This document shows, one piece after another, positions 3,222 to 40,777 of a DNA stretch of 45,435 nt. Numbering within the stretch: the first letter of the stretch is position 1; each line of letters opens with the position of its first letter. Position numbers and translations under genes: made by a program. The notes beneath the pieces were generated by a model. That model had not been told where the DNA came from. It saw only the letters and a program-made list of their open reading frames with translations, and ran no database searches. This stretch comes from a virus. The stretch spans positions 1 to 45,435 of the IMG/VR virus record IMGVR_UViG_3300031227_000095; one strand, 5' to 3'.

Positions 3222-4579
3222 GTACTCTATTTGCACATTTTAGATTAAGTGAAGGTCCACTAGCTGGACTAACCTCGTGGGACGACACCGGATTACATAC
3301 CATTACGTGGGATGGGACTACAGCTAACATGAGAGCTGGTGTTCAGTCGTCTGGGTATAACCCTAATGCTGTTGATGGTTGGTGGGAGATTACTGGTGAT
3401 GACGTGATGTACCCTTACCCTGTTAGTCAATTTGATGTTTATCACAAAGGCGGAACATTTAACTTTTGTAAAGATACGCATTACGCACCTGAGACTAGCC
3501 CTATTGGTACTTTTAATGGGATTGATGATGAAATAATACTAGATACTGAAGTGGTATTCAATGACGATTTTTACATAACTTTTTATGTTGATTCAAGCGC
3601 AGGTAATCTAGTTCACCAGATGTTGTTTGGTGCTGGTGCTGGTCCTTGCTTGCTTAGGATTCTAGGTGGAAAATGGTCTGCCAAATTAAATGATGACAAC
3701 ACTAGATACTTTAGTTTAGTAACTAATGTTACAGGGTTTGGTTCGTTTGTGAGAGTCAACGGTGTACTCACTCTTACAGTTGGAGATCAAACGCAGAGCA
3801 TTAACATACCAACAGGTGTATCCTTCGCTATCAAAAACATTTCAGTAAACACCGTTTCGTTTAGTGGGATCATAAGAAATGTGGATATTAATGGAACTCT
3901 TATTCCAATCAACGAAGGCGAAGGACTAGACTGTCACGACTCAGAGGGTAACATTATAGGCACATATAGCGTAACTATCCCTACATTCTGGAATGGTGAG
4001 CCTATGGTGTCTCAGGCTATTATGGATATGGAAGCTGCTAGTACCAGTGGGAATTATCTTACTGATGGACTTGGGCATCCACTACCTATGACACAAACCA
4101 ATTGGGGTGAGCTTGGGGCTGATATTGTAATCAATGGTCAGTTTATTTATGGTGCTGATGATTGGACCCTTGGAACTGGGTGGACTGTAGCCAATAAAGT
4201 CCTTACATACTCTGGAGCGGCTTTTGGACCAGTAGTGTCTCAGTTAGGTGATGTAACGCTGTCGGCAACTTACAATGTTGACTGTGAGCTGGAGGCTGGG
4301 TCTTTCAGGATAAAGGTTGGTTCTCTCGCGTACACTACATGGGAAGGTACACCCCTCACCATAGTAGCAGATGGAACTATTCCAGATATCAACATCGAAC
4401 CGTTGTCAGCAACTGTCGAGTTAAGTTCAATTTCCATAAGAGAAGTAAACCCAGTAATGAACCAAAACAAACAGTACTATATGACAGCTTGTGAGGGTAA
4501 ACCAGTCGAGCGATGGGATTATAAAACACCACGTACCACGGCTGAGGATGCTGAGATTAAGCTCCTCGGCTGTCTTTGA
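3218..4579 (+). CDS. Tail protein with lectin-like (LamG/ConA-fold) and carbohydrate-binding-like domains
   Basis: A 453-residue protein. It begins at once with LFAHFRLSEGPLAG and SWDDTGLH, the usual entry to a LamG/concanavalin-like domain in phage tail proteins, with no preceding N-terminal region. Residues about 95-235 are beta-rich (IGTFNGIDDEIILDTEV onwards). Around residues 305-410 a second module starts (VINGQFIYGADDWTLGTGW), matching the carbohydrate-binding 'NG.F..G...W..G.GW' pattern. The missing N-terminus is probably the 126-residue product encoded at 2,470-2,850. Role inferred: glycan recognition by the tail. Confidence 0.62.
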   Translation: MSTLFAHFRLSEGPLAGLTSWDDTGLHTITWDGTTANMRAGVQSSGYNPNAVDGWWEITGDDVMYPYPVSQFDVYHKGGTFNFCKDTHYAPETSPIGTFNGIDDEIILDTEVVFNDDFYITFYVDSSAGNLVHQMLFGAGAGPCLLRILGGKWSAKLNDDNTRYFSLVTNVTGFGSFVRVNGVLTLTVGDQTQSINIPTGVSFAIKNISVNTVSFSGIIRNVDINGTLIPINEGEGLDCHDSEGNIIGTYSVTIPTFWNGEPMVSQAIMDMEAASTSGNYLTDGLGHPLPMTQTNWGELGADIVINGQFIYGADDWTLGTGWTVANKVLTYSGAAFGPVVSQLGDVTLSATYNVDCELEAGSFRIKVGSLAYTTWEGTPLTIVADGTIPDINIEPLSATVELSSISIREVNPVMNQNKQYYMTACEGKPVERWDYKTPRTTAEDAEIKLLGCL

Positions 4580-12816: not shown

Positions 12817-13428
12817 ATGGAATGTGTTGAAGATCTTGGTATCAAAGAAACAGTATCTAAGAATGGCAATATCAGGGGTAGAAGGTTTGGTTTGTTTATG
12901 TGCCCAGAGTGCTTTGAGAAAGTTGAGGTTGATATATATTACGGCAAGAAAGCAAAAACCTGTGTAAAGTGTAGGCCGTATCATATGAAGTGTAAGCATC
13001 ACATGTGTAACACTAGGCAACATGCGATATGGAAGGGAATGAAGCAGAGATGTGACGACAAGAAGCGTGAGAAAGGAATTAAGTATGATGTATCATGGTC
13101 AAATTTCAATGAATTTTGGAAAGACATGGGGCCGACATACTTTGATGGTGGATCAATAGATCGAATAGATAACAACAGTGACTATTGTAAAGAAAATTGT
13201 CAGTGGTTAACCTTCTCTGAAAGCGCAAAAAAAGATAAGATAAAAAAAGTTATGCAGTTCGAGATATCAGGTAAAGGTAAAAATATAATATATACTAACT
13301 GTGTAAGCACGTTTGACTCTGTTGTGGAAGCAGAAGTGAAGACTGGATTCCATAGGTCTGGTATAGCAAGATGTGCAAGGGGAGAGCGTAGAAAGGCCAA
13401 TGGATATGGTTGGAGATACGTTAACTAA
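12817..13428 (+). CDS. Free-standing HNH/AP2-like homing endonuclease
   Basis: A 203-residue protein. Residues 28-65 hold several CxxC pairs (MCPECFEKV, CVKCRPYHMKC). Residues about 68-135 match the phage homing nuclease pattern WKGMKQRC, then DVSWSNFNEFWKDMG, SIDRIDNNSDY and ENCQWLTFSE. The C-terminal 50 residues (CVSTFDSVVEAEVKTGFHRS, ending GYGWRYV) look like a NUMOD1 DNA-binding module. It is preceded by a 133-base leader with small inverted repeats and its own RBS (GTAGAGG). It sits directly behind the major capsid gene, a typical landing site for free-standing homing nucleases. Confidence 0.75.
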   Translation: MECVEDLGIKETVSKNGNIRGRRFGLFMCPECFEKVEVDIYYGKKAKTCVKCRPYHMKCKHHMCNTRQHAIWKGMKQRCDDKKREKGIKYDVSWSNFNEFWKDMGPTYFDGGSIDRIDNNSDYCKENCQWLTFSESAKKDKIKKVMQFEISGKGKNIIYTNCVSTFDSVVEAEVKTGFHRSGIARCARGERRKANGYGWRYVN

Positions 13429-14649: not shown

Positions 14650-16926
14650 ATGGGGTTATTTGATACAGAAATAAGGCAGTTTGAGATGTATAACCAGCCT
14701 TTGGTAGATGATCCAAATACTGCAGACCTTATCGGACCTGCAGTAGTAGCCATGAGGAGAGAAGAAGACTTCATGGATCACGTAAGACTAGCCTTGGTCG
14801 CCATTCTTGGTAGAAAGGATATTCATAAATTCCAAAATATAATTGAAGATGGTGTAACTCCAAATATAGAGTTTCCGGATTCAAACATAAACTTACTAGT
14901 TGTACCTAATGCTTATCATGAGTCATTGGTTCCAGTTGGTGGAGAGTGTACTGGTGTGAGAGTTGGCCATATGCGTGTTATCGATTGGATCAATTTCTAC
15001 ATGGCCCAAAACTCAGTGTCTCCATATCAACCTTGCATACAACGGCCAATAGTCGACATAGACGATGGTAACGATGGATTTAGGAGTGTTGGTGTTATAG
15101 GAGCATCGTTGAACGCTACAGGCACTGCATATATAGCATACGCATTGGATCATGGTGCCGGTGAAAATCCAATTGACACAGTTATAGAACTTGAACCAGA
15201 AATACCACTAAAACCAGATGGTATATTTAGTGTAGTTTATTATTCATATGGACAAATTGATCCAGAGGAACCAGAGGGTGGTTGGAGCGAGGAGGAAAGA
15301 CCAGAATCATTTGAACGGTGTGGTCTTGCATATTATCCTATAGAAGAACCTGACTTTAGTTTTGGGCAAGAAGGCGGAGAGTTCAGAACATTTCCGCCAC
15401 TTCCATTGAGGGTTAACAATGAAAACTACTATGCTGCGTTTGACGAAGCAAAAATAGATGATATAGAGAAGCTTGGTAAGATTGTTGGAGTTGATACAGG
15501 CAAGCTTATCGATGATGTAATGGAGGGAGCGGAAGAGGAAGGTTACGACTCCAAGATGGATCATGTATTTCTTAACTTTGGGACAAGGATTCATGATAAT
15601 TCTGAAGCTAGTTGTAGGTATTTGTATTTATTGTTTAGCAAGATAAGAGAGTATGGACTTGAGGCGGGAGATGGTAGCTTTGGATTTTATCCATGTTGGT
15701 ACAATGAAATTGTAAAGGTCGAAGGTGCTATAAACCCAAGTGTTTATACTCCTGCAATGTGTAATATAATTACTATTGAAACAGATGACTATTATTATGA
15801 ATTTACGTTCTCAATGATCTCAGACGAAACTATGACAGTAGCTGCTGTATTGGCCGATGAGATTATGGGACCGCAATACGAGGACCGTGCTAACGCTTCT
15901 GGTAAGTTTTGGTACATAAGTTCAAGTTCGGGTGATCCAAGTCGTGAGGAGGAGTATGAGCAGCCTCCCGCGGAAGCTGGTATGTGGCCAGAAGAAGGTG
16001 AACAGCCAGTTGAGATAATGTTTGGTGAATGTGATGGTGGTGACGTAAGGTTTATTAAGATAGTTGGTATTGGTGGCAAGGTAAGAATTAAGGATACTGA
16101 GACTGGTGTGGTTAAGATGAGGAGACTTAACTACGATGATCCAAATAGTATAACTGTACCGTATATACCTGCTATTGGAGAAGTACTTACTAACCATGAG
16201 TTAGCTGATAACTTCTTAAGTGGACTTCATGTTAGTATGTATATAGCTGACATAGAAACCAAAAGTAAAAGCTGGTGGATGGTAATAGCTCAGATCATCA
16301 TTGTAATTGTTGTTACGTGGATAAGTTATGGACAGATGACCGGAGCTACATTGTCAGCGCTTGGTGCTGCTGATGTCATTGCTATGGGAGCGCTCATGAT
16401 AGCTGGATATATAATGGGCAAGATAGTTGTCGGTATATCTAGGGATCTTGGTTTAATAGCTGGGGCCATAGCTGCATTGTTAGCAATGTATATTACTGGT
16501 AGGATGACTACTGGTTCATTCGCAAGTATTGGAAGTATCAGTTCTAGTTTTTCAAGTATGAGTTTGATGGATATACTGTCAACATCGTTCAAAACATTAA
16601 GTCAAGCTGTAAATACATACACTGGATCGTCTCTTGGTGATATTGGAAGAGAGTTTGAAGGAAAAAGAGAGTGGTACGCCAATGAGATTAACTTGCTTGG
16701 TGACCAGCGTGAAGAGCTGGAAGAAGAAGAAGGTGGTTATGTCGGCAGTGAGGTTTTGATAGAAGACTTGATAAATAGCAGTATAAGGACTACTGTGAAT
16801 CCAATGGACGCAAGTAGTTACTTTGATTTTTACGACAAGTTTCACGAGATAGGCGAATCATTTTTCGATACAGATAATTTACTAGAAGCTCCATTTGATA
16901 TGGAAGCACAATTAATGCCGGTTTAA
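14650..16926 (+). CDS. Large virion protein with a hydrophobic C-terminal third, candidate ejection protein
   Basis: A 758-residue protein. Residues 1-535 are mixed alpha/beta with many acidic stretches. Residues about 541-620 contain three consecutive hydrophobic segments (WWMVIAQIIIVIVVTW, then IAMGALMIAGYIMGKIVV, then LIAGAIAALLAMYITG), followed by a Ser-rich linker and an acidic C-terminal helix. It lies between the repeat-containing virion gene and two Gly/Ala-rich small virion genes, as in the N4 gp53/gp52 region. A role in forming a channel through the host inner membrane during genome ejection is inferred from the hydrophobic block and position. No enzyme motif was recognised. Confidence 0.5.
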   Translation: MGLFDTEIRQFEMYNQPLVDDPNTADLIGPAVVAMRREEDFMDHVRLALVAILGRKDIHKFQNIIEDGVTPNIEFPDSNINLLVVPNAYHESLVPVGGECTGVRVGHMRVIDWINFYMAQNSVSPYQPCIQRPIVDIDDGNDGFRSVGVIGASLNATGTAYIAYALDHGAGENPIDTVIELEPEIPLKPDGIFSVVYYSYGQIDPEEPEGGWSEEERPESFERCGLAYYPIEEPDFSFGQEGGEFRTFPPLPLRVNNENYYAAFDEAKIDDIEKLGKIVGVDTGKLIDDVMEGAEEEGYDSKMDHVFLNFGTRIHDNSEASCRYLYLLFSKIREYGLEAGDGSFGFYPCWYNEIVKVEGAINPSVYTPAMCNIITIETDDYYYEFTFSMISDETMTVAAVLADEIMGPQYEDRANASGKFWYISSSSGDPSREEEYEQPPAEAGMWPEEGEQPVEIMFGECDGGDVRFIKIVGIGGKVRIKDTETGVVKMRRLNYDDPNSITVPYIPAIGEVLTNHELADNFLSGLHVSMYIADIETKSKSWWMVIAQIIIVIVVTWISYGQMTGATLSALGAADVIAMGALMIAGYIMGKIVVGISRDLGLIAGAIAALLAMYITGRMTTGSFASIGSISSSFSSMSLMDILSTSFKTLSQAVNTYTGSSLGDIGREFEGKREWYANEINLLGDQREELEEEEGGYVGSEVLIEDLINSSIRTTVNPMDASSYFDFYDKFHEIGESFFDTDNLLEAPFDMEAQLMPV

Positions 16927-16941
16927 CCGGGAGGTAATGAA

Positions 16942-17322
16942 ATGGCAAGTAATTACATGGACCAACGGCCACAGATTGGCGATACTGGTTACGACTGGAA
17001 TAAGATGGGAATAGATGCGATGGGCTTAGGTGGTGACCTCGGTGGATACTTCGGTGTTCCACAACAGGATATCGCACCACCTGATACTGGATTTGATTGG
17101 GGTGGAGCGGCTAAAGGTTTCGGTTCAGTTACTAGTGGTATTGGCGGGTTAGCTCAAGCTTGGCAAGGGATGCAGGGATTAAAATTAGCCAAAGAACAGC
17201 TTGGTACGCAGAATGCCCAGTGGGAGAAGAATTACGCAGCCCAGAGAGATGACATAGCTGTTAGTCGTGCTGAGAGGGAAGATGCTCGCGCCAGATCTAA
17301 AGAGAACTTTGTAGTAGCATAA
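16942..17322 (+). CDS. Small internal virion protein (N4 gp52-like)
   Basis: A 126-residue protein with a Gly-rich first half (GLGGDLGGYFGVPQQD), a GIGGLAQAWQGMQGLKLAKE segment and a charged helix ending SKENFVVA. Gly-rich entry followed by a single long helix is typical of small encapsidated proteins next to the vRNAP in N4-like phages. GGGAGG precedes the ATG. Role in DNA ejection inferred from location. Confidence 0.5.
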   Translation: MASNYMDQRPQIGDTGYDWNKMGIDAMGLGGDLGGYFGVPQQDIAPPDTGFDWGGAAKGFGSVTSGIGGLAQAWQGMQGLKLAKEQLGTQNAQWEKNYAAQRDDIAVSRAEREDARARSKENFVVA

Positions 17323-17343: not shown

Positions 17344-19062
17344 ATGGCTAATGCAGTAACATGGAAGAATATTGGAACTGTTAGTGGTGCAGGTGCGCTT
17401 GCTGCTGCTAATAGTTCAAGACAGGATATAGGGCAAGGAATAGCTAATATAGGCAAGGCAGCTAGTGGGTTCGGTGATGATCAAATTCAAGCTGAAACAG
17501 ATCTAGCTGTCAATGCCTTAAGGGCTGCTGCCCCAGATGACAGGCAAGGATTGTTGCAAAGTTTCGCTGATAGCAATATTAGTATGCATAGCGATCAGAT
17601 AGGCAAGGTTGCGTCTGAGATTGATGCACGGGATTTCGCTGAAGACAAGTTCAGAACCACAACCGATGCGACAGGTGCTCAGCGTAATATTCAGAACGAA
17701 TTGGATCTATCTAAGTTTGAATATAAAAAGGAACAGGACGCTTTCTCAAAAGCATTATCTGTCAAAAAGTATAATCAAAAAGCCAATGAGTTTAACAGGT
17801 CTTATGACGTTGCCAATGGATTATCAAGACCAATGCCCATGTGGGACGGATCGACTAGTGTTAATCCAATTGAACAAGCGCAAATAGATAACGTTGCAAT
17901 CAACCAAACTAAAAGTAATCCACAGTTTGAAGGTGATACAAAAGATCTTGACAGCTCTGGCCCAATACTTGTGTCACGTAAAGATGCAACTGTACTTGCG
18001 ATTCAAGATTTAAAATTAAATGGTAGTACCGGTGGGTTTAAGTCGAACAGGGATGAGGTTGAAAGCAAGTCAGGTGATATACTTATTTCAAGCGCAGTTG
18101 ATGCATTCTCTCCAGTTATAGAGAAATCTATCAATGATTTTATGGCTACGAATTTAGAGTTTTTTGATGAAGACGGTAAGATTGACTATTCTGCATTCCA
18201 AGATCAGGATCAGAAGATAGCTCCTGGTGCAGTTAAGGCCGGTAAGATGTTGGATGGTAGGCTGAGTACAATGACAAAGCAGATGAACAAATATCTTCGT
18301 AATTTCCCCGCTGGTCCAAAGAGAGACGCAAGGGAGAAGCAATTCAGAGAGGAGTCCGGACTAAATAAGCTTGACAGCATGAGCAAGGAATTTAACTCCA
18401 AGGTTTCTGAGCAACAAAAGTTTGAACGAACACAGAAGGGGAAATCGGTTGTTAAGGGTGACAAGGTAAGAAGTTATTACGATACAACTAGTAGTGTGTC
18501 AAAGGTGTATAACGAAAACTATAAAGATAGCGACTATGATATAAGTAACTTTAAAAATCAAATAGCCACAATGCGCAATGTAGTTCCACCAGCATACGAT
18601 AGTCTTCCAGATGGTCTAATAGCTGAGGCTATCAGTAATGTCACTAAGGCTGGAAGTACTATTGGTTTTGATACAAACAATATAGAGCTTATAAACAATC
18701 CAAGTGCTACTGCTAAACAAATTAATGTTGCTGTGTATGAGGAGATTAGGAACATAGTTAGTAGAAAGAATGGTAGTACTAATAATACATTCATGCCAGC
18801 CGTGGCAAACTTAAGTAGAGAAGATGTTGCAAAAGAGACTGCTGAGCTAAGAGCTACAAGGGCACCAGAGTCTACTTTGGTGAAAGCTGCTACTTTAGCT
18901 GGAAAAGTTGGTCGTGTAGCCAAAACAGCCAGTATGTTTACACCTCTTGGTGCTGGACTATTAGGTAAAACATTGTTCGACAAATCTAAAAATCTTACCA
19001 GGTCTCTTGATACCAAAGAAGAAAGAGATGTACTGTTAAAGGCATTAAAAGGTGACAAATAA
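17344..19062 (+). CDS. Internal virion/ejection protein (N4 gp51-like)
   Basis: A 572-residue, mainly helical protein. The start (VTWKNIGTVSGAGALAAANS, then GQGIANIGKAAS) is the Ala/Gly-rich entry seen in ejection proteins. Residues about 60-410 are charged helices, and residues near 510-555 contain a Gly-rich hydrophobic segment (TPLGAGLLGKTLF). Its stop overlaps the ATG of the vRNAP gene by one base (TAATG), so the two are translationally coupled and probably made in related amounts. No catalytic motif was recognised. Confidence 0.55.
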   Translation: MANAVTWKNIGTVSGAGALAAANSSRQDIGQGIANIGKAASGFGDDQIQAETDLAVNALRAAAPDDRQGLLQSFADSNISMHSDQIGKVASEIDARDFAEDKFRTTTDATGAQRNIQNELDLSKFEYKKEQDAFSKALSVKKYNQKANEFNRSYDVANGLSRPMPMWDGSTSVNPIEQAQIDNVAINQTKSNPQFEGDTKDLDSSGPILVSRKDATVLAIQDLKLNGSTGGFKSNRDEVESKSGDILISSAVDAFSPVIEKSINDFMATNLEFFDEDGKIDYSAFQDQDQKIAPGAVKAGKMLDGRLSTMTKQMNKYLRNFPAGPKRDAREKQFREESGLNKLDSMSKEFNSKVSEQQKFERTQKGKSVVKGDKVRSYYDTTSSVSKVYNENYKDSDYDISNFKNQIATMRNVVPPAYDSLPDGLIAEAISNVTKAGSTIGFDTNNIELINNPSATAKQINVAVYEEIRNIVSRKNGSTNNTFMPAVANLSREDVAKETAELRATRAPESTLVKAATLAGKVGRVAKTASMFTPLGAGLLGKTLFDKSKNLTRSLDTKEERDVLLKALKGDK

Positions 19063-22000
19063 TGGCTTTTGGAAAGTTTGAGTTTTCTGGTGTTGATGAC
19101 CTATATTTAAGTGAAGAAAAGAAGTTGGAAAACAAGGCTGCTCGTAAAAAAGCGGCTTTACCTATTTTTAGTAAGAAGGCAACGCTTGTAAGTGCCGTTG
19201 ATGGGGATACTTTTAACATACTTGAAGCCGAAAAGAATCTTAGGCTTTCTGGTGGTATAAACACTGCTGAATCAACAGAGACTGGGTTGTCTAATAATAA
19301 GATCCTTAGGAGTCAACAGAGATCATATGGTGCGAAGTATGGAGTACCATGGGAGACAGTAACAAAGGCAACTATAAAGCAGGAAGGTTTGGATGCTAAA
19401 AAAGCTGCACTTGGTGCACTTGGTGGAGAAGGGTCCGATATACAATATGTTGAAAAAGGTGTTGATAGATATGGAAGAACACTTGCTGATGTTTATAGTA
19501 GTGATGGTGATAATTTAGCAGATACATTGAGTGGAAGAAATGCTAATAATCAATTTGATTCAGCAACTGCAAAGGGTAAGTATACAGGCGAAGTTGGAAC
19601 AGGATTTGACGATAAGGGTAGTCCGGAAATTCAGATTGGGTCAGATGGCTTGTTTGTGTATGGTGACCATCAGCACTTGACCCGTAGCGACCTTGAGAAG
19701 AACCGAGAGCTATATGATGCAGATTTTGCCTACAAGTATAGTTGGGATGCAAAACTTGGCAGTGGGATAGCTGGTCAAGTTGCTGATGTTGCAGGTATGT
19801 TGTATTCAGGTACAGGCATGGTTAAAGATATATTTGAGAAAGGTATATTGTCTGGCTTTACTCCAGGGAACACTCTTGAAGATAGTTTTAACACTTGGAA
19901 CAATATTCCTCATGTTGCTAGCGGTAAAACAAAAGCTGGTGTTATTGGCAATAATGAGAGGGTGATGTTTGATAGTATAGTTAATGCTGAGACGCTTACC
20001 GACGAGCAAGAAGAGTTTATTGGTAGCCCAACAGGTAGGAATATGCTTAGGATTGCCACTGAGTATAGAGAGAAGAGAGAAGAGTTTAAAGAAATTGGTG
20101 AAAATGCTGAGGACAGATCTAGTGTTGTCGATAGACGAAAAAGTGTAGCTGTGAACAAGGAATTCATAGAAAAGTATGAAGATGAGGGGCTTGGAAGTGC
20201 GCTACTGTTTGGATTAAAGAATGCTCCGCACTTTGGTTATAAGATGGTTGAAAGCCTACCACTTATGGTCCCTCTTGCTACTCCAGGTGTAAGTGTTGTA
20301 ACCATGGCTGCTATGTCTGAAGGCGGTACTATGGATGGTGTTGAGGAATTTAGACTTACAAATGGTAGTGAACCAAATGAGAAGGAAGTCAACACTATAG
20401 CTGGATGGAAAGCTGCTTCAGCTTTATTTGAAAAATTTGGTGCTGATAGAGCCTTTGCAGGTAATACTACTTTTATAAAGCAATTTTTAAAGTCAGCGGG
20501 CGAACTTGAAAAACCATTAAGATTTTTAGCCAAAGGTGCTGAAAGCTTATTTTCAGAAGGTGCATCTGGAGGTGGATCTGAATTTTCTGATCAGATGGCT
20601 ATAACGCAAGATGTAAGTAATGTTGATTACGGTAAGGTTGCACTTGGGGCCACAGAAGAAGCTCTTGGTGCACTTGGAATATCTGCGTCTAGTGGGTTGG
20701 TTCGTGGAGTTAAGAAAATCAAACCAACTAAAGCAATTGACAATAAAATAGAAGATGCCACACCAACTCCTCAAGCGTCTCCGTCAACATACACTCCAAC
20801 AGAAGGTATTGGTGGAGCTGAGACACAAACAATATTAGCAAATAGCATTGCAGTACTAACTGGTAATGCAAGTGGCGATAAGAACCAAGCCGTATTTGAC
20901 CTATTGTCTACGTTACAAAATGCTGACGAACTGTTTGGGGATACTGCTCAAGCGGCTAAAGACGGAATGGCTGGTTTGATCAAAGATAACGCTAAAGAGA
21001 TATTTGCTGCAAGTGAAGAGCTTAGTAAGCTTAAGGATGTGACTGAGAAAGAATTTAATGTTGTTCTTGGTAGTCTTGGTTCTGGTGATAAAGTAGACAT
21101 AAGCAAGATAGATGGGTTAAGCGAGCAAGAAATTAAAGCTGTTGAGGCTATCAACTCAGCTATTGATAGTTCTGGGACCAAGGAGATGCAAAGGGTTAGT
21201 GGTGAAATCATTGATCCAAGTACTCCAAACGCAAGTATAAAGGGTTACCTTCAAGGTGCTTTGGATACCGGGTCAATAGCTGCTGGGTTCACTAATTTTA
21301 ATATTCACATGCAGGCTAAGGCTAATGCGTTCATAGAAGCGTTTAATTCTGGCACTGTGAGCTATATCAAGAAGGGGATGAATGATTACACTATTCACAC
21401 AGAAGTTCCTTCAGACGCAGTAAAAGAGGATAAAGGGACTGGTTACAAGAATTACTTTGTTATCCATGGCAATAGTAAAAGATTTGTTGAGGGAGTGGAA
21501 AGTGACGTTAAGCTTATAAGTGAATATTATGAGTTGGCTGAAGCTGTAGTTGATGGAAAGGCAAGTAGGGGGGAAACGGTTAAGGTGGCTAATGACCTTG
21601 GTCGTGAGATAATTAAATCAGGAGCACTAGACAAGGGAGATATTGGTGGCAAAGTCGAAGAAGAAAAAGTCGAAGGGGAAGTCAAAAAGGAAGCAAAAGA
21701 AGCTGGAAAGAAAGCTGACGGAACAGTAGATAGTGCGCCAGACACTGTAACTACCAATGTGGATCAAAAGAAACGAGTAAAAGTTATAAAACAATTAGCC
21801 AGTGTTCTTGGTTCCGGAAATGGTAAGTGGAATACTGAAAAATACGCACAACTATTCCATAAAACTGGTAATAAAAAAACAATTAACGTTAAAACTCTTA
21901 GTGATTTTGATAATGAAATCATCACAACAAAAGCACAAGCTACAGAGTTTGAAAGTAAGATTTCTGGTAAAAAATACTATTTAGTTTATGTCGGAAATAT

Positions 22001-25000
22001 AGAAGACGCTGGTGGCCCAATACAAGCATACGATTCTAATTTTATTGAAATAGAAAGAAGTACTACTTACAATAAAACATTGGCTAGTATTGCAACTGTA
22101 GCAGAACATGATTCTGCACAGATGGTTGTTGATTCATTGAATGAAAAGACAACTACCAAACAACCAACCACAAAGCCTGTAGCGAAGCCCCAAGGCGATA
22201 GCGAAAGGCTTGGTCAACCAGAATCAATACCAATACCAGTTGAAGAAGAAGGTGGCATTGATTCAGATAGGTTCGACGAGGATACAATTCCGACAGAGAG
22301 CATGTCTCCATCCGAATCTATTGACGAGCTTACTGATAACTATAACTCATCTAAAGTTGTCAGAACCAAAGATAAGATAATAGCAAAGGATGGCAAGACA
22401 GAAATAGTTGCAAAGAATATTGACGGAGTCATATTCATATCGACAAACAAGGCACTGTGGAAGAAATATTTTGCTGAAAAAAGATGGACAAAACCAAGAG
22501 AGCAAAAAGATGGTAGTTTTGCTGAGGCATTACCAGAAGATATATTTAAAAGCGAGAATGAGTTAGAAGCATTTGTACTCGCACACGAGGAAGCCCATAA
22601 TGTCGTATTCAAGAAACCAGATGAAACTATTGGTGAGTATGAAAGAAGAGTAAACGATTACGCTATCAAGGAACTTGGGTTTGGATATAGGGCGGATAAG
22701 TCTAACTGGTTTGACAAGGTAAAGAGTAACCTGGTTAACATTGGCCGGGAGTATACAACTACTCTCGGAGAACTCATTACACACAAGCTTCCAACTAAGG
22801 ATAGCTTCCTTAGTGGCACATCTCTCAAGATACTTAGTAGTGAGACTGAGAAGAATGCTGAGATAGAGAGACTTACTGCTGAGTTTAAAGCTGCTGGTGA
22901 TAAGTACATTGATCCAGATAGTGACAAGCAAGACTTGATTTATAGTTTTAATAACCTGATGGTCAAGTCTGGGAATACGCAGGTTACTCCTGATGAATTC
23001 TATTATGCTATGGCAAATGCGTTTGCTAATTGGATGGCTGCTAGTGGGAGAAAGACACTTATCAATGATGCCCATGATATGAGTATGATCTTGTATGGTG
23101 AATGGGATCATGCATTGCTTGGGAACGATGCAATTATTCACGACAAAGGTACTCCTCTGTATATGGTAGCAGAAGGTGCTGGTGGTAACATGTCTAAGAT
23201 ACTTGGACTTAAAGTTGCAGTGCCAAAAGGAATGAGTCGTCAGGATAAAGCAATGCTTGGTAGGCTTAGCGATCAAAAGAGTTTCGATAAGACGCTTGGT
23301 TTGATGATGTTGGATCTGGCTGGAAGGCTAGAAAGCAATCCAGTTACAGTTGTGAAGAATGCTACCTATGATCTTGGTAAGGCTAGTAAGGCTACCAGAA
23401 AGAGTAAAGACAATACTATTCAACTTAGTACTATTAAAATAAACAAGGACACCAAGCAAGCTGATAAAGTTATAGACGGATTCTCAAACAGTGATCAGTA
23501 TTTTGAAGATATCAATGGTGTGCAGATAGATAAGAGTGACATTTATACTGATAAGCCAAAGGAAACTGTGTCCAAGAGGATTCAAGGTAGTATGAGTGAT
23601 TTGCCTGCTAATAGGCAGACACTGCTTCGCAAGTTGCAAGATGTTGTTTGGAAACCAATAGAAGGCAATATTAGCACATTTCTTAGTTTTGACCCAAGCC
23701 ATCAACGAATAATAGCTGGGTGGGTAGACCGCAATAGTGTTCACGTTGATAAGCGTAAAGCTGTAGATGCCAGGAACAATCAAATAGATAAACACATTCA
23801 AGACTTGAAGGACCTTAGTGCCAAGAAGTTCTTTTTTGGTTATTATTTTATGAACCAATTTAGAATAATGATCGATAGTAATGGAATTAATCCATTGAGC
23901 GGAAAGAACCTTCATAGGTTCATGGTCAATAACGATAAGACCAAAGTTGTGTTCAAGAAAGGTGACGCGACTGAAGTAATGTTTAAGTATTCAATCGTTC
24001 AGGCACTTGGTTCAGATGTAGATAAGACTGATCACGCTGGTGTGCTAGAAGACTTTAATAGTGTTGTTGGAGAGTTTGGTGAATTGGCTCAAAACATTAC
24101 TGGTAAAGAGTTGGTTGATCGTGGTGTTAATGCTCATGGTTTGGCTGGGCTAGTTGCACTAGGCGATTGGCTCAATGTAGATACTGGGGAAGAGGTTACT
24201 TCGCATCTTGGTTTAGAGGTTGATGGAATCACCAATGGATACGCGCTTGGATTGCTGCAATTTCCCAATGACGAAGACGGTGGGCTGGAAGCTAATCTTA
24301 AAAGAGTTGGCATCACATATAAGAAGGGTGAGTACGAAAAGGGAATCCATGGTGTAGAAGATGCTTATAACAGAGCAGGTAGACAGTTTAAGAAAGTTCT
24401 CACTGGCAATGGACTTATTGATGTGTTTGAAGGGGTGTATGGTGGCATAGACAGGAACTTGATGAAAGGCCCGTTTATGATATTCAATTATGGGGCAAGT
24501 GCTCACAAGGCCACTGAGGGCATAGCAAAAGCTATATCAAGTAAGATTTACAAAGGTGAAGTTAGTGCCGATGAATTGAGGGTATTTGTCAATACGATTA
24601 ACCCTCGTGGTATGTATAAGATTAATAATCTAATTGCTGCTCTTGATAAAAAGTCATTTATGGAGACTGATGTTAGCGATGATATAGTTGAACTTGAGGG
24701 AATGATACAGCGTGGGTTCTCCGGAATAGTAGAAGAAGCATTTGAGCCATTGGTTGGTAGTACCAAGGAAATTAAAGATCAACTGACGAAGGCAATGGAT
24801 GCTATAGCTAGTGGGTTCGCGGTAGAGTTTGAAGAGAGAAGTAAGGAATTAGTTGGTGAACTGGTTATCAACGGTCCTAAGCACCCAGAGCTACTTCCAA
24901 GTGGTAAGAAGAACAAGAAAGCTGGCACTCCAATTAGATTGAGTAAAGACGGACTGAACCAAGTCGAATTGAGACAAGTTGCCGAGGGCTTACTAGATAC

Positions 25001-28000
25001 TCATTATCCATTGTTGGCTGGAGGGTGGAACAATAGTAGTGAGGGTGAAAAACAAGCTTTTATAGATATGGTTAGTAGGGATAAGATTCAGACGGACAAG
25101 AGAGTTCAGAACTTCATGCTAACTGAAGCTGACAATAAGGCTGTGCGTGATAAACTTGCCACAATGGTCTCAGAATATAGTGATTCATTAACCAAAGCCA
25201 AGAACATAGCAAAACTCGTTAATAGTAGTGGTGGTAAGACAACTTGGGATGCTATAAAAAGAAATCCTAAGCTTAAGGTTGATGGTAAGCTTAATTTTGA
25301 TAAAGTAGCAGAGTTGCTTGGCGAAGGTGGTACCACTCAGACGACATCAGGTGTAAGTCTTGGTGGTTTTGCTTACGGTCATCCAGGTGCAAAGATGTTG
25401 GTTAGGAGTATTCAGAATATGGATGCTAGTATTATGGGTAAAACTATGCAGGATTCTGATAGTTTTCTTGGTTTGCATGATGCTGTGTATGTTGGGATAG
25501 ATAAGATTCAGGAAACAGTTAAACGTATAAATAGTAATGCACTTGAGTTAAGCAAAGACTACTCAATAGCAGAGGCAGTGCTTGAACAATTCATTAAAGT
25601 TAAGGGTAATATAGAAAAGAACGACCATAGGCTTACAGTAAAACTAAGTAAAAAATATGGTGAAGATAAGTTATATGAGGTCAAAGCTCTTATTGACCAA
25701 GCTAATAGTAGACTTGACGACCAGAGAGCGGAAAAGACTAAAACTGAAAGCTTTGGTGGTGATACAAGTAAAATTGACTTACGTATGCAATCGATTGTTG
25801 ATGGGTTGGCCAATGAGCTTGGGATAACTAATCCAGAAGCTATATCACTACTTGATACCGATTTGGGAAAAATAGATATTGGAGCCAATTTAAGAGCATG
25901 GGATAAGCATTACGCAGACCCAACAAATAAAGAAGCTAAGGATGCAAAGAATCCTAAAAAGCCAAAAGCTAAGCTTGTTCCACCTAGTCAAAAACTTGGT
26001 CCACTTGAGGAGACAGTTTCAAAGAATAATGAGGATCGTAAGATATTGTTTGATAAGCTTAAGTCAGGTGAAGTGGTTCAGTACTATATGCCAGACTCAA
26101 CATCTAATAAGGATATTCAGCTTGGTTCACTTGGTTCGGAGAGTACTCAGGATATAAAGCAAGACGCTGTCGTAGAAGTGTTGCGTGGAAATGCTACTGC
26201 TGAAAATATTGAGCAGGTTAACGAGATGCTTGGTGCTGATAATAAGGATATCAATAAAGTGCTGAAAGAATTGGTTCAGCCATTAGTATGGAAGATTGAT
26301 AGCCTAGTTATAAACATTAAGGGGTATGCCAGTGGAGTGTATGCGGAAGGATTATTTAGAAGTGCTGATAATGCAATAGAGGTTGTATATAATATTGATG
26401 GGCCAGTGAGTAGGACTGAACAGACTGCTCAAGAAGTGTTTGCCCATGAGATGATTCACGCTGTGAGTTGGAGAGCCGTACAGGGTAGCCTACACTTCAG
26501 GAATGAATTAACAGCACTGAGAGATGCAATTAGTAAGAATGTGTCTGTAAGGGACTTTTTGGTCGATGGAGATACAAGTGAGGATGCTAAGAAATTAGCT
26601 GAGAGGCAGTATTTAGCAGTGTTCGGTAAAGATAGTCTTCAAGAGTTCTTGGCGTATGGATTAACCAATCCGGTTTTAATCCAAAAACTGAAAGGCACTA
26701 AGTCAGTTGGAGTTAAATGGTTTGCTGGTGACACATGGTATGAAAAGGTTCTGAGTGCTATGGTTAAGGCCATGTCAATAGTCGAAGGGTTTATTAATAA
26801 AAAGGACAATAAGAATGCCCATGAACAATTATTTAGCTTGGCTCAAGAGGTTAATGGGATTAATCAGAGCAAGGCAAGTAAGATAGCCAACACGATTAAT
26901 GCCGGTAAGGTGTACGAGAAAAGTGACGAGCTTATAAAGAGTTTCGTTGGTAAACATGAAAGGTTTGCGCGGACACTTATTACACATGCTGCTATTAAAG
27001 GGCTGAAGATATCACATGCCGGGGCAAGAGTATTCCCTAAGTTCAATGGTGTGGTTGGTAGCAAGTTGACGTTGGCCGGTCAGATCGCTACGTTGAGTCC
27101 CGGTATTATAGCTAGGATGATGATCCAACTTTTTGGCAAGGGGATCATTTATACTACAAAGAATGGGGACAAGGTCACACTTTATACAAAGGATAAGGAT
27201 GGGAATATAATTGATCCAGGTAAAGCATTGACTTATTCGCTTGCTGAGATGGCAAAGAAGATGGAAGGTAATGCCGCAAGGGAACTGTTTAAGCTGATTA
27301 CTGATGTGACAGGTACAATGCCGGTTGTGTTGCAGCGGTCATTGAGTGAGAGTAAAAGGAAAGTTGAGCAGGCTCGTGATTCAGCTAAGGAACTTGTGGG
27401 GACTGTGCTTAACAAGAGTTTTGGAGACAGGAAACCAAGTAAAGAAGAAAGCCGAATGCTCACTAAGGCTATTGGTAAAACAGACCTTCAATTATTGAGA
27501 GATGTGTATAGTGACGATGTTGTAGCTACATTGATCAAGAGTAAGAGTAAGCTTGATGCGCTGATTAATAGTGAGAAGAAAGCACTAGGGCTTAACGGTT
27601 GGTGGTATAAGCAAGCTGAAGGGTTAAGTACTAGAATGGTTAAACAAGAGCAGGGTGGCCATCTTGTATTTGATAACGTTAAGGCAATGGTCAAGAACGC
27701 TGACAGCGAGATTTCAGATGTTGATAGGTTTGACAGGTTTGTCACACTTCTTGCTCTTAGTAAGACTGATGGTAGGGAGAGTTTGGCTAGTTTTATAGAT
27801 AGCAATAAGGATGGGTTTACTGAGGTAATTAATACATTCGTTAGTTTGGCCAGTGTTAGTAAGGAGAGTTTTGTTGGAAGTGAGATGTTGATGACAAAGG
27901 GTTATGTTCCGAAGGTTGGTGACGCTCATAGGGCCGTGGAGGTTGCTGGGCTAGACCGTATAACCAAAGAACAGATGAAACTTAAGGGGTATGACTGGCA

Positions 28001-29720
28001 ATACGATTTGGTTAATTATGCTGGTGAGCAAGTTGGTATGTATTTGGCAAAGAATCTTCCTCTTGAGAATCAGGTTAAAGGATTGCTTAGTAGGACCGGT
28101 AAACATATGGCCCATACGAGCATGATGGAGAAATGGAAAGAGGATTATAGTGATAAGGTGGATTCAGGTAGTAGGAACTATAAGGATCTGAAAAAGTATC
28201 AGGCATTGATGTTGAATAAAGAGATGGGAACGGTGCGTACTGGAAAGGCATTAAGGCCAGTTGTGGATGAAAAAGGGAAGATTGTAGACCTGACTATCGA
28301 TATGAACTTTGATGTCGAGGAGGACCTTCTAGGGCTTAATATGGATGTGGTCGAGGTAACGTCTACATTGAATATGAATACTATTGATAAAATTAATAGT
28401 GAAGAGGTGAACGAGGAAGGTATCGATACATTGATTGGCAGACAGGAAGATCATCGTCCTGGCAATGAGTGGGAGTTTATTAATATAATGGACACGAAGA
28501 GCGATGACTATCAGGAGTTGTTTATCAGATTGCCATGGGCTGCTAGAAAGAAAATTGAGAAGTATGCTAAGTTGAATGGTGGGGACTTTTGGGTAGAAGA
28601 AGTTTGGCTAGATGCAATATTTGGTTACGAGAACTGGAGTATTGCTAATTTGGTTAAAGGTGAGAGTAGAAAGAGGAAGGTTAAGATAGTAGAGGAAGTT
28701 GTGAAAGGTATAGTAGGAGTAATTAATAACAATATAGTTATTAAGACTCCTGCTGTTTGGGGTGGAAACTTTGCAAGTAACTTTATAACAAGTGTGATTA
28801 GTGGACTTGGTGCATTTGAAACTATCAAGTATTGGAAAGATGGATTGGATAAGCTGAAGGAATATCAGAAATATGCTAGTGAGATTGCTGAGATAGATTT
28901 CAAGAGTAGGGCTAATGTAGCTTACAAAAAGGCTAACGTTGCAAGGCGTAAGCTCCTGACCGATAGAATGAACAAGAGTTCGGTTGCTGAGTTGATGGAT
29001 GCAGGGCTATATAGTGCAATTACAACTCAGGAGATGCAAACTGATGAGTATAGTTATAAGAACAAGGCGGTACGTGTTATAGAGGAGGCTACAGGCAAGC
29101 TGAAGGGTGGTACTACTGTGGGGAAGATAGTGAAGGGATTGTATCTGGCAGAAGACACTGAAGCATATAAGAGTTTACTTGGTATGGTTCAGGTGTCAGA
29201 TTTCTTGGGTAGGTATGGAATCTATAGGAAGATGGTTGATGATCAAGGTAAGACTAAAGATGAGGCATATAAGTACATTCAGGACGTTTTCGTTGATTTC
29301 AATATACCAATCGGTAAAGTTGCTCAATATGCTAACAGTATGGGCATGATGCTATTCTATAAGTACTGGTCAAGAATCCAACGAGCAACACTAGGAATGA
29401 TCAAGCATCATCCAACTAAAAGTATGCAAACATTACTGATGAGGAGTGTATTGGGAATGGACATGGGCTCAATATTTAATTCAGGTATCATTACTGGAGG
29501 AAACTTCTCACCAACACATGGTTGGATTGATCCAATCAAAATGCTTAAGCAGTTTGTAATGCCAAGTGGATTGGAGATTGGTATTGGAATTGGTGGTGGT
29601 GAAGGTGTTACCGGGGTGCTTGGTGCTCTTGGTGCTGGCGCTGCTACGGTTGAAGGTGCGATAAAGAATAATCAATTACATGGATTTCACTATGGTTCAA
29701 GTGATAAGGCTGGTAATTAA
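19062..29720 (+). CDS. Giant virion-encapsidated RNA polymerase (N4 vRNAP-type) with SNase-like and zincin motifs
   Basis: A 3,552-residue protein; N4 vRNAP is about 3,500. The central part has the T7/N4 RNAP motifs: the T/DxxGR-equivalent region at about 1593-1601 (GYYFMNQFR, Arg1601), motif A DGITNG with Asp1721, motif B RNLMKGPFMIFNYGAS with Lys1802 and Tyr1810, and motif C GLHDAVYVG with Asp2140. Residues 40-165 look like a staphylococcal-nuclease domain: VDGDTF, RLSGGINTAES (Arg61, Glu70) and DRYGR (Arg139), equivalent to the catalytic Arg/Glu/Arg. Two HExxH sites are present: HEEAH at 1175-1179, and HEMIH at 2462-2466 with LQEFLAYGLTNP (Glu about 2528) as possible third ligand. By analogy with N4 it is packaged, injected and transcribes early genes. 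The nuclease and peptidase roles are inference. Confidence 0.88.
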   Translation: MAFGKFEFSGVDDLYLSEEKKLENKAARKKAALPIFSKKATLVSAVDGDTFNILEAEKNLRLSGGINTAESTETGLSNNKILRSQQRSYGAKYGVPWETVTKATIKQEGLDAKKAALGALGGEGSDIQYVEKGVDRYGRTLADVYSSDGDNLADTLSGRNANNQFDSATAKGKYTGEVGTGFDDKGSPEIQIGSDGLFVYGDHQHLTRSDLEKNRELYDADFAYKYSWDAKLGSGIAGQVADVAGMLYSGTGMVKDIFEKGILSGFTPGNTLEDSFNTWNNIPHVASGKTKAGVIGNNERVMFDSIVNAETLTDEQEEFIGSPTGRNMLRIATEYREKREEFKEIGENAEDRSSVVDRRKSVAVNKEFIEKYEDEGLGSALLFGLKNAPHFGYKMVESLPLMVPLATPGVSVVTMAAMSEGGTMDGVEEFRLTNGSEPNEKEVNTIAGWKAASALFEKFGADRAFAGNTTFIKQFLKSAGELEKPLRFLAKGAESLFSEGASGGGSEFSDQMAITQDVSNVDYGKVALGATEEALGALGISASSGLVRGVKKIKPTKAIDNKIEDATPTPQASPSTYTPTEGIGGAETQTILANSIAVLTGNASGDKNQAVFDLLSTLQNADELFGDTAQAAKDGMAGLIKDNAKEIFAASEELSKLKDVTEKEFNVVLGSLGSGDKVDISKIDGLSEQEIKAVEAINSAIDSSGTKEMQRVSGEIIDPSTPNASIKGYLQGALDTGSIAAGFTNFNIHMQAKANAFIEAFNSGTVSYIKKGMNDYTIHTEVPSDAVKEDKGTGYKNYFVIHGNSKRFVEGVESDVKLISEYYELAEAVVDGKASRGETVKVANDLGREIIKSGALDKGDIGGKVEEEKVEGEVKKEAKEAGKKADGTVDSAPDTVTTNVDQKKRVKVIKQLASVLGSGNGKWNTEKYAQLFHKTGNKKTINVKTLSDFDNEIITTKAQATEFESKISGKKYYLVYVGNIEDAGGPIQAYDSNFIEIERSTTYNKTLASIATVAEHDSAQMVVDSLNEKTTTKQPTTKPVAKPQGDSERLGQPESIPIPVEEEGGIDSDRFDEDTIPTESMSPSESIDELTDNYNSSKVVRTKDKIIAKDGKTEIVAKNIDGVIFISTNKALWKKYFAEKRWTKPREQKDGSFAEALPEDIFKSENELEAFVLAHEEAHNVVFKKPDETIGEYERRVNDYAIKELGFGYRADKSNWFDKVKSNLVNIGREYTTTLGELITHKLPTKDSFLSGTSLKILSSETEKNAEIERLTAEFKAAGDKYIDPDSDKQDLIYSFNNLMVKSGNTQVTPDEFYYAMANAFANWMAASGRKTLINDAHDMSMILYGEWDHALLGNDAIIHDKGTPLYMVAEGAGGNMSKILGLKVAVPKGMSRQDKAMLGRLSDQKSFDKTLGLMMLDLAGRLESNPVTVVKNATYDLGKASKATRKSKDNTIQLSTIKINKDTKQADKVIDGFSNSDQYFEDINGVQIDKSDIYTDKPKETVSKRIQGSMSDLPANRQTLLRKLQDVVWKPIEGNISTFLSFDPSHQRIIAGWVDRNSVHVDKRKAVDARNNQIDKHIQDLKDLSAKKFFFGYYFMNQFRIMIDSNGINPLSGKNLHRFMVNNDKTKVVFKKGDATEVMFKYSIVQALGSDVDKTDHAGVLEDFNSVVGEFGELAQNITGKELVDRGVNAHGLAGLVALGDWLNVDTGEEVTSHLGLEVDGITNGYALGLLQFPNDEDGGLEANLKRVGITYKKGEYEKGIHGVEDAYNRAGRQFKKVLTGNGLIDVFEGVYGGIDRNLMKGPFMIFNYGASAHKATEGIAKAISSKIYKGEVSADELRVFVNTINPRGMYKINNLIAALDKKSFMETDVSDDIVELEGMIQRGFSGIVEEAFEPLVGSTKEIKDQLTKAMDAIASGFAVEFEERSKELVGELVINGPKHPELLPSGKKNKKAGTPIRLSKDGLNQVELRQVAEGLLDTHYPLLAGGWNNSSEGEKQAFIDMVSRDKIQTDKRVQNFMLTEADNKAVRDKLATMVSEYSDSLTKAKNIAKLVNSSGGKTTWDAIKRNPKLKVDGKLNFDKVAELLGEGGTTQTTSGVSLGGFAYGHPGAKMLVRSIQNMDASIMGKTMQDSDSFLGLHDAVYVGIDKIQETVKRINSNALELSKDYSIAEAVLEQFIKVKGNIEKNDHRLTVKLSKKYGEDKLYEVKALIDQANSRLDDQRAEKTKTESFGGDTSKIDLRMQSIVDGLANELGITNPEAISLLDTDLGKIDIGANLRAWDKHYADPTNKEAKDAKNPKKPKAKLVPPSQKLGPLEETVSKNNEDRKILFDKLKSGEVVQYYMPDSTSNKDIQLGSLGSESTQDIKQDAVVEVLRGNATAENIEQVNEMLGADNKDINKVLKELVQPLVWKIDSLVINIKGYASGVYAEGLFRSADNAIEVVYNIDGPVSRTEQTAQEVFAHEMIHAVSWRAVQGSLHFRNELTALRDAISKNVSVRDFLVDGDTSEDAKKLAERQYLAVFGKDSLQEFLAYGLTNPVLIQKLKGTKSVGVKWFAGDTWYEKVLSAMVKAMSIVEGFINKKDNKNAHEQLFSLAQEVNGINQSKASKIANTINAGKVYEKSDELIKSFVGKHERFARTLITHAAIKGLKISHAGARVFPKFNGVVGSKLTLAGQIATLSPGIIARMMIQLFGKGIIYTTKNGDKVTLYTKDKDGNIIDPGKALTYSLAEMAKKMEGNAARELFKLITDVTGTMPVVLQRSLSESKRKVEQARDSAKELVGTVLNKSFGDRKPSKEESRMLTKAIGKTDLQLLRDVYSDDVVATLIKSKSKLDALINSEKKALGLNGWWYKQAEGLSTRMVKQEQGGHLVFDNVKAMVKNADSEISDVDRFDRFVTLLALSKTDGRESLASFIDSNKDGFTEVINTFVSLASVSKESFVGSEMLMTKGYVPKVGDAHRAVEVAGLDRITKEQMKLKGYDWQYDLVNYAGEQVGMYLAKNLPLENQVKGLLSRTGKHMAHTSMMEKWKEDYSDKVDSGSRNYKDLKKYQALMLNKEMGTVRTGKALRPVVDEKGKIVDLTIDMNFDVEEDLLGLNMDVVEVTSTLNMNTIDKINSEEVNEEGIDTLIGRQEDHRPGNEWEFINIMDTKSDDYQELFIRLPWAARKKIEKYAKLNGGDFWVEEVWLDAIFGYENWSIANLVKGESRKRKVKIVEEVVKGIVGVINNNIVIKTPAVWGGNFASNFITSVISGLGAFETIKYWKDGLDKLKEYQKYASEIAEIDFKSRANVAYKKANVARRKLLTDRMNKSSVAELMDAGLYSAITTQEMQTDEYSYKNKAVRVIEEATGKLKGGTTVGKIVKGLYLAEDTEAYKSLLGMVQVSDFLGRYGIYRKMVDDQGKTKDEAYKYIQDVFVDFNIPIGKVAQYANSMGMMLFYKYWSRIQRATLGMIKHHPTKSMQTLLMRSVLGMDMGSIFNSGIITGGNFSPTHGWIDPIKMLKQFVMPSGLEIGIGIGGGEGVTGVLGALGAGAATVEGAIKNNQLHGFHYGSSDKAGN

Positions 29721-36556: not shown

Positions 36557-37441
36557 CGCTTGTGTTCAATACAGCTCGTTATACTGTACTAGCGGACTAA
36601 CCGCATCTGCATGTTTCCATGCAGGCCAGACTATATCACTATCTCTTTTTACATTTTATGCAATTTGGAGTCATAGTATTTTTATTTGTAAAGTAAGCTT
36701 GCGCTCTAGTTACAGCGTTTCCACATACTGTACATTTCACATTAAAATACTTCTGACCATTACGCTGCTCGTCAAAGCTTAAAACCAACCAACAACCGTA
36801 TATGTTACCTATAAGGCTATTCATTAGCTTTTTAGCTTTAATGCCTGAAATACCAGAGTTCTTGCCACCTTTTGACTGAGCATTGATATTCTCAGCGTGA
36901 GTACACCACTCAAGGTTCCAATCATTATTGTTTGATGGGTCATTGTCCATGTGGTGTGCTATTGGCTTATTGTCTGGATTGGGTATGAAATGTTTAGCAA
37001 CTAGTTGGTGTATCAATAGACGTTCTGTCTTGTGATCCCTACATAGCGTTACTCTTCTATGGTTATACTTTCCTATATCTGGCTTAAGTTCCTTTTGAGG
37101 GTATCTCTGAGGAGCACCATTCTTATTTAGTATAACCCTTGCAACCGAAGTCACTATACCAGAATTTGATATAGTGTATAACTTTTCATATCCACTTATT
37201 TCAGCTATCATGTAAACACCCTTTCCATTTAAGTTTATATCAACTTAACACGGTTAATGGTAAAGGTGAAGAGATATCTCCCGTTTCCACTCACTTGAGT
37301 GTACTTCCTTTCGGAATAGTCGTTGAGCAATACCTGTGTAGGTCTTCGCTGCTGATTGTCTTCGACATTACTCGGTCAGAGTTTCCAGCAATTAGAGAGA
37401 TTTTTCCATAAATCATCACTGACTTAGGCGGCTTTGTTCAA
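36557..37441 (-). mobile_element. Group I intron with HNH gene, inserted in the Walker A motif
   Basis: An 885-base intron. The core elements are readable on the minus strand: P-element AATTGCTGGAAAC (37,381-37,393), Q-element CAATCAGCAGCGAAGACC (37,341-37,358), R-element GCTCAACGACTATTCC (37,313-37,328) and S-element around GTGATATAGTC (36,628-36,638), with GACTA in R pairing TAGTC in S (P7). A GAAA-capped hairpin CTGCATG/CATGCAG follows (36,607-36,624, P9-like). The exon ends CGGT, the intron's GCCG can pair with it including the required U-G, and the intron's last base is G. Splicing joins PSGFG to KGHS, restoring a P-loop. Confidence 0.85.
36639..37211 (-). CDS. Intron-encoded NUMOD4-HNH homing endonuclease
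   Basis: A 190-residue protein. Residues 4-50 (ISGYEKLYTISNSGIVTSVA) are a NUMOD4 module. Residues about 55-112 form the HNH domain: RRVTLCRDHK, LLIHQLVAKHFIPNPDNKP, IAHHMDNDPSNNNDWNLEWC, then THAENINAQS. The C-terminus has a zinc finger (CTVCGNA and CIKCKK). All catalytic HNH residues appear present, so it is probably active and able to spread the intron to intron-less copies. The stop codon lies directly before the S-element of the ribozyme. Confidence 0.82.
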   Translation of the reverse strand: MIAEISGYEKLYTISNSGIVTSVARVILNKNGAPQRYPQKELKPDIGKYNHRRVTLCRDHKTERLLIHQLVAKHFIPNPDNKPIAHHMDNDPSNNNDWNLEWCTHAENINAQSKGGKNSGISGIKAKKLMNSLIGNIYGCWLVLSFDEQRNGQKYFNVKCTVCGNAVTRAQAYFTNKNTMTPNCIKCKKR

Positions 37442-40036: not shown

Positions 40037-40777
40037 TTAAGTTAAGTGTTTATAATACGCACCCCCTACAGAAACATTCAATTTCTTACTTGTCTGAGGG
40101 CAGTAATTACTGGTATTGTTCGGAAATAGCCATAACGCTTTAAGCGTAATGCAGTCTTTAACGCAACCATTGCATCCTATCCCTCTGTTTTCTTGTATTC
40201 CAGTATGTCTTCCACTCAATTCAAAGCACTCACTCAGCTTAGCTAACATCTCTGGATAAACCTCTGTCTTAAATCTTTCGGAACTGTAGTAGTCAACGAA
40301 AGTTTTAATTTTCATGCCGCCTTTACTAAAGATACCTATGAACTCTTTTGTATCTTCGTAGGAGTATGATTCACTAACAACTATTACTGCTGTCTGTCCT
40401 GGCACTACAGTGTTACGCAACCCATGCCCCATATGATATCTAATATCAGGGCCATACGAGTCATATACATGAGTGTCAATTAACCCATTAGTATTTATTT
40501 GAACTCTTGCCCCACTTAAGGCAGCCATGTGGTATATCATAGGGAAGTTCTTGTGAAGCCCTGGTTCGCCACCACTTAAACTTATTATAGGTTCTATGTC
40601 TTTTTTTTTACACAGGGCTACGTAATTGCTTATATGTGGGCCAACAAAAGCCGGATAAATAAAGTGATCTCCTTTTGCTTGAAAATCATTAAGGCAGTTA
40701 CTACAATTCTTATCACATTTATTTGTCAACAGTATGCGTAACCTGAACTCATCCCTGTGTTTTTGTTTGTCTATCAT
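40037..40777 (-). CDS. Radical SAM enzyme with SPASM-like C-terminal Cys cluster
   Basis: A 246-residue protein. LTNKCDKNCSNCLN has the CxxxCxxC motif (Cys21, Cys25, Cys28) for the [4Fe-4S]-SAM cluster; SLSGGEPGLHKNFP contains the GGE motif (residues 69-71) that binds the Met part of SAM; VQINTNGL is the following strand. Cys202, Cys205, Cys209 and Cys226 could hold an auxiliary cluster as in SPASM/twitch enzymes. It is smaller than most SPASM proteins. The substrate cannot be told: nucleotide/base modification or peptide modification are both possible. It ends 12 bases before the ThyX-like gene start, so the two are probably co-expressed. Confidence 0.72.
   Translation of the reverse strand: MIDKQKHRDEFRLRILLTNKCDKNCSNCLNDFQAKGDHFIYPAFVGPHISNYVALCKKKDIEPIISLSGGEPGLHKNFPMIYHMAALSGARVQINTNGLIDTHVYDSYGPDIRYHMGHGLRNTVVPGQTAVIVVSESYSYEDTKEFIGIFSKGGMKIKTFVDYYSSERFKTEVYPEMLAKLSECFELSGRHTGIQENRGIGCNGCVKDCITLKALWLFPNNTSNYCPQTSKKLNVSVGGAYYKHLT

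Follow-up and report, generated by a model that had tools for sequence, protein, structure and literature searches.

Can a virion RNA polymerase that travels with phage DNA also carry a nuclease and proteases on the same chain? The question is raised by one long reading frame in a virus record of 45,435 bases, the whole of which was analysed here (the window). We favor, with a probability of about 0.72, the reading that this frame encodes a polyvalent injected protein, namely the N4-type virion RNA polymerase (vRNAP) of an uncultured N4-like phage, with an N-terminal tip resembling staphylococcal nuclease (SNase). Sequence comparison and structure prediction give the domain order SNase-like / NTD / zincin-like ZU / RNAP / zincin copy B / C2, with most catalytic positions of the tip retained (table 1).

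The polymerase and its surroundings

The frame has no internal stop, and its ATG overlaps the stop of the preceding gene (TAATG). It matches PHROG 2206 (virion RNA polymerase) with E=1e-211. The initial annotation of this DNA had placed all single-subunit RNAP motifs in one frame of 3,552 residues, and this is borne out: R1601, D1721, K1802, Y1810, and D2140 align column for column with their counterparts in 15 Schitoviridae polymerases from public records of cultured phages, that is, N4 and 14 others. On sequence grounds the product is an N4-type virion RNA polymerase. The homology extends into the C-terminus, where PHROG 2206 covers residues 2385–3484 and solved N4 PDB chains cover 3201–3457. 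Residues 161–1094 returned no family match and finish in a low-complexity linker. Overall, several unrelated enzyme-type domains share one chain, as in polyvalent proteins.

Table 1. Features of the polymerase locus, in window positions
Feature	Position	Strand	Remarks
ORF, 758 aa, N4 gp53 (tail plug) position	14650..16926	+	PHROG 2220
ORF, 126 aa, N4 gp52 position	16942..17322	+	PHROG 2646
ORF, 572 aa, N4 gp51 position	17344..19062	+	putative ejection protein by synteny
Virion RNA polymerase, 3552 aa, N4 gp50-like	19062..29720	+	
Predicted SNase-like domain, residues 36–160	19167..19541	+	D47/D49/T50, R61, N67, E70, Y137-G138-R139
Remaining N-terminal region, residues 161–1094	19542..22343	+	N4 NTD by position
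Zincin-like domain ZU, residues 1095–1210	22344..22691	+	HEEAH 1175–1179 (nt 22584–22598), E1194, N1198, A1201
Single-subunit RNAP catalytic core, residues 1590–2150	23829..25511	+	R1601, D1721, K1802, Y1810, D2140
Zincin-type domain copy B, residues 2375–2580	26184..26801	+	HEMIH 2462–2466 (nt 26445–26459), E2528
C2 region, residues 2581–3552	26802..29717	+	homologous to N4 C2

The gene order is that of N4, with gp53-, gp52-, and gp51-position genes followed by the polymerase and then a strand switch; the gp51-position ORF gave no family match and is assigned by position only. Elsewhere in the window, phage-family matches include the portal, major head protein, SSB, primase, and exonuclease. 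With gp50 of Escherichia phage N4 (PDB 11fw, 11gp, 9pnq; PMC12633501) the window polymerase shares the five RNAP residues, C2, and a zincin-type CTD, besides the order gp53-gp52-gp51-gp50 of the locus. In contrast, N4 gp50 has neither an SNase tip nor ZU, both of which are found in the window.

Public records are uneven in how they name such proteins: in OP313112.1, KY065148.1, MG592470.1, and OY978778.1, virion polymerases, or the regions that encode them, are labelled "ribonuclease E", "coil containing protein", or as unrelated enzymes, apparently by misannotation.

The SNase-like tip and its distribution

The Pfam SNase model (PF00565) scores 17.7 bits (E 0.005) against the 300-aa N-terminus, below its curated cut-off of 21, and phmmer with the window N-terminus matched SNase in two colinear, weak pieces; its integrin matches were dropped, being absent again in the profile search. 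When the whole chain or the tip alone served as the query, scanning recovered only a 100%-identical contig. Relatives were gathered by scanning with the RNAP core, which yielded 80 IMG/VR loci, and 16 of the N-termini, 17–28% identical to that of the window, were aligned (profile A4). The two invariant columns of this alignment are both Asp residues of the DGDT box (D47, D49), and E70 and R139 are near-invariant. Searched with the profile, 177,635 PDB sequences gave matches that, for all 60 listed, are SNases or SNase-derived (best E=4.4e-4), with the DGDT, R..DTPE, and YGR boxes in register. The AlphaFold2 model of residues 11–200 has a core pLDDT of about 81–95, and all 50 of the Foldseek matches listed for it are SNases (E=4e-5, probability 1.0), at a moderate TM-score of 0.41 by query and 0.56 by target. 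Residues ~36–160 are thus predicted to form an SNase-like OB-fold domain, so that structure prediction upholds the fold proposed for this N-terminus in the initial annotation, together with its fusion to an N4-type vRNAP. Most active-site residues are kept in the window, and relatives retain them at 20–30% identity.

The family positions D21, R35, E43, and R87 are represented in the window by D49, R61, E70, and R139. Three of these (R61, E70, and R139) had been picked out beforehand and are indeed kept; what had gone unmentioned is that the position of D40, a Ca2+ ligand, is Asn (N67) in the window, as it is in the closest relative, L019. The two chains are 68% identical in RNAP and 78% in zincin B but only 32% in the SNase-like domain, where D49, E70, and R139 are nevertheless common to both; the spacing from R61 to E70 is one residue longer in the window. 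Compared with PF00565 SNases, then, the window domain shares the predicted fold and four of the positions, and differs in the Asn at D40, in the greater length of the helical stretch that separates E43 from the YGR strand, and in its fusion to a 3500-aa chain. Other relatives lie nearer to the canonical family: the tip of L067 passes the Pfam cut-off (21.4 bits), and all five kinds of catalytic position are kept in L023, L043, L020, L022, L067, L034, L070, and L086.

A stricter, nine-member core profile detected the tip in the window and in a further 25 contigs, some of which are near-copies; loci outside the training set matched at 1e-17 to 4e-34. Nearly all 26 tips retain the D21, R35, and E43 positions; a YGR-type box is present in about two thirds, while about a third have no clear one. 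None of the 15 cultured Schitoviridae polymerases sampled has the tip. Searches of phage records were likewise negative for the window N-terminus (nucleotide and protein) and for the tips of L024, L023, and L020 and the ZU domain, apart from an Erwinia match at E 0.5 that we consider noise; tblastn with five different tips singly found no N4-like isolate, although diverged tips could escape such a search. On the RNAP-core tree the tip is strongly clustered, requiring 9 changes where shuffling gives 22.1 (none of 500 shuffles was as low), and 22 of the 26 tipped rows fall within a 38-row set that contains none of the sampled cultured phages. A single gain with subsequent losses is the likely history, on a tree with uneven support and some long branches.

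In L030, L038, L045, L022, L025, L033/L034, and L070 the tip starts an ORF of its own, which precedes the RNAP ORF. Among 65 vRNAP N-termini compared with Pfam, two instead match SLT transglycosylase (best E 1.2e-20) and two match phage lysozyme; because such N-termini exist, this end of the polymerase appears to be a site that different enzymes can occupy. An SNase tip is not mentioned for N4-like polymerases in the open-licence papers found, and its novelty rests on that absence in a non-exhaustive search.

A comparable arrangement occurs in a cultured phage outside the N4 group. The product of gene0066 of Aeromonas phage phiA008 (OL774570.1, L099:13911-20063), a hypothetical protein of 2050 aa, resembles the window polymerase in its N-terminal SNase, its HExxH-type site (HELGH), and its place in a virion-protein gene block. 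It differs in giving no RNAP match, in a complete set of SNase catalytic residues (Pfam 29.9 bits, above the cut-off), and in PHROG matches to virion structural proteins.

Zincin-type domains and split chains

Both HExxH sites noted in the initial annotation, HEEAH at 1175 and HEMIH at 2462, are present and are conserved as HExxH in L019 (HESGH and HEMIH). In 5000 shuffles of the polymerase the mean number of HExxH motifs was 0.043, and two or more appeared in 0.06%. The two sites are of different kinds: HEMIH belongs to a domain known from N4-like polymerases and is no surprise, whereas HEEAH lies in a separate, unclassified domain.

Every cultured polymerase sampled (15) has at least one HExxH in its C-terminal region, and these sites fall in two tandem homologous domains, A and B (hhalign E=7e-11), noted at L006 (N4 gp50, 2228 and about 2439–2578), L003, and L017. 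The motif is found in copy A in N4 (2228), LUZ7, Littlefix, Fifi011, and phiCB2047-B, in copy B in the window, pYD6-A, VBP32, MS02, pVco-5, Alteromonas A5, and others, and in both copies in Vibrio phi1 and PG11. The N4 copy B, at the start of the C2 domain, has no HExxH but matches the copy B of others at E=3e-19, and a HMMER copy B profile finds 2439–2578 of N4 best and C1 second. The window, in turn, has copy B only. HEMIH as the counterpart of the HExxH of N4 is therefore ruled out, since it aligns to the degenerate second copy of that phage. Across nine copy B sequences the HExxH and a downstream Glu are invariant (H88, E89, H92, E154, first-row numbering), making E2528 a candidate third ligand; weak matches were obtained to SprT, M91, M78, and aureolysin. 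Copy B is homologous to the N4 C1/C2 domains, assigned to zincins in a passage of PMC5512222, and passages of PMC5512222 and PMC12633501 already describe a zincin-type domain in N4-like polymerases. Judged by homology, HEMIH-2462 is part of this described domain and not new in kind. The same comparisons indicate that one or the other zincin copy has been lost in different Schitoviridae branches, an A/B pattern for which the relevant passages of the cited N4-like polymerase papers hold no description.

The HEEAH domain, which we name ZU, spans ~115 residues between the NTD and RNAP. Among nine members from nine phages the HExxH and a following E-x3-N (E1194, N1198) are invariant at low overall identity, and the AlphaFold2 model has a confident core (pLDDT about 81–94) of strands, an HExxH helix, and then a Glu-bearing helix. 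ZU lies after RNAP in L022 (12479–12961) and L042 (3598–4095) and on its own ORF in L027 (3370–5820); because its position varies in this way, it appears to move as a unit. The conserved HEEAH with its downstream ExxxN would fit a zincin. Alternatively, HEEAH-1175 might be a conserved helix of a different fold with no metallopeptidase site. Sequence comparison of ZU with Pfam, PHROG, and the PDB gave nothing informative, its model matched no PDB fold, and good model matches were confined to unnamed large viral proteins; nor has ZU any detectable profile similarity to A or B, leaving a third copy of zincin A/B unsupported. Conservation of H, E, H and E-x3-N in nine of nine members, the placement of HExxH and Glu on successive modelled helices, as in polyvalent-protein zincins described in part of PMC5512222, and the relocation of the domain as a unit nonetheless make the different-fold alternative unlikely.

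In three loci the polymerase is encoded by three adjacent ORFs, an SNase-tipped NTD, RNAP, and a zincin-B CTD (L030:4632-16372, L038:4195-16348, L045:5097-17379), which overlap or are separated by a few bases. One joint only is split in L033, L022, and L070 and in L037, L052, L067, L076, L078, and L098. Assembly errors might account for some of the splits (the fused L081 has a near-copy in L088); L030, L038, L045, and L091, on different contigs, have similar ORF boundaries. Two split polymerases have been reported previously and, in the passage concerned, are ascribed to gene calling or read-through (PMC10654107).

These splits bear on whether the chain processes itself, as the initial annotation had suggested it could and as a passage of PMC5512222 proposes. 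After entry, the zincins would then cleave at the NTD-RNAP and RNAP-CTD joints and free RNAP from inhibition by the CTD. ZU and zincin B do sit at the two joints formed in N4 by flexible linkers, and in that phage the CTD represses RNAP (both from parts of PMC12633501), and relatives have gene breaks at these joints. Against this, N4 vRNAP is described as packaged unprocessed (passage in PMC5512222), the recombinant protein is reported without degradation (passage in PMC12633501), and HExxH persists in the CTD ORF of about ten loci in which RNAP and CTD are already separate (L027, L030, L032, L037, L038, L045, L052, L067, L078, L091, L098). Self-processing is possible but weakened, and we consider it improbable. 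Because CTD ORFs already split from RNAP mostly retain the motif, an outside target fits better, and the most likely substrates of the zincins are host proteins or some target other than these two joints. The tandem zincin losses and the natural NTD/RNAP/CTD gene splits show which parts must be joined and which need not be, and have a bearing on what the zincin does.

What the tip might do at entry

By analogy with N4, the capsid would contain the chain, which would leave together with the DNA by way of channels formed by the upstream gp51/gp52-like proteins, after which the NTD would stay at the inner membrane and RNAP would transcribe the early genes. As the DNA enters, the tip might act on nucleic acid. 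SNases depend on Ca2+, an ion in short supply in the cytoplasm but more abundant in the periplasm and outside the cell. The NTD of N4, for its part, is membrane-associated according to a passage of PMC12633501. For these two reasons we favor action at the envelope, the most probable site, rather than on the host chromosome. The likeness to polyvalent proteins of phages and conjugative elements (Iyer et al. 2017, PMC5512222) lies in a giant multi-domain chain that is transferred, the transfer in the window phage being presumed from N4; the words SNase, staphylococcal nuclease, micrococcal, and thermonuclease are absent from the text of that paper.

How far the tip works as an enzyme depends on how its residues are read. 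That the likeness arose by chance, from short DGDT and YGR stretches in a fast-evolving N-terminus, is highly improbable and largely refuted: single-sequence scores do lie under the Pfam cut-off, but family profile and structure search both return SNases, and a near-canonical R-x-x-G-I-D-A-P-E occurs in L024, L067, and L052. A weightier alternative, although one we think somewhat unlikely, is a pseudo-nuclease, a non-catalytic DNA/RNA grip holding the end of the genome or setting where the chain lies in the ejection channel. The Asn at the D40 position in the window and L019 is in its favor, as are the several relatives without a clear YGR box and the hazard of a live nuclease beside packaged DNA, which would need keeping off the phage's own genome. 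It is harder to reconcile with the D21, R35, and E43 positions surviving in almost every one of the 26 sequences despite an identity of about 20%, with relatives such as L023 and L043 that retain all five kinds of position, or with the full set in phiA008.

Returning to the SNase-like tip as a candidate nuclease, the N67 at the D40 position leaves its activity in the window phage at near, and slightly below, even odds, which rise in relatives that keep D40. The larger proposal, in which an uncultured N4-like lineage injects its polymerase with a working nuclease as the leading tip, and one chain or three adjacent products deliver nuclease, protease, and transcription at the onset of infection, is tentative, with the balance somewhat against it. 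No part of phage protein ejection is less well understood than the N-terminal third of N4-like virion polymerases. A recognizable enzyme fold at the tip of this third, conserved over a large uncultured lineage, gives studies of DNA entry a concrete activity to examine. The giant SNase-tipped virion protein of the cultured phiA008 makes the hypothesis testable.

As for the remaining genes, PADLOC returned no match in the window. A Radical SAM-like protein is encoded in the minus-strand replication block (40037–40777, −; Pfam 26.8 bits against a cut-off of 29.5). The gene after the major head protein has a weak I-HmuI NUMOD-like match (12817–13428, +), and a NUMOD4/HNH homing-endonuclease-like gene lies among the replication genes (36639–37211, −).
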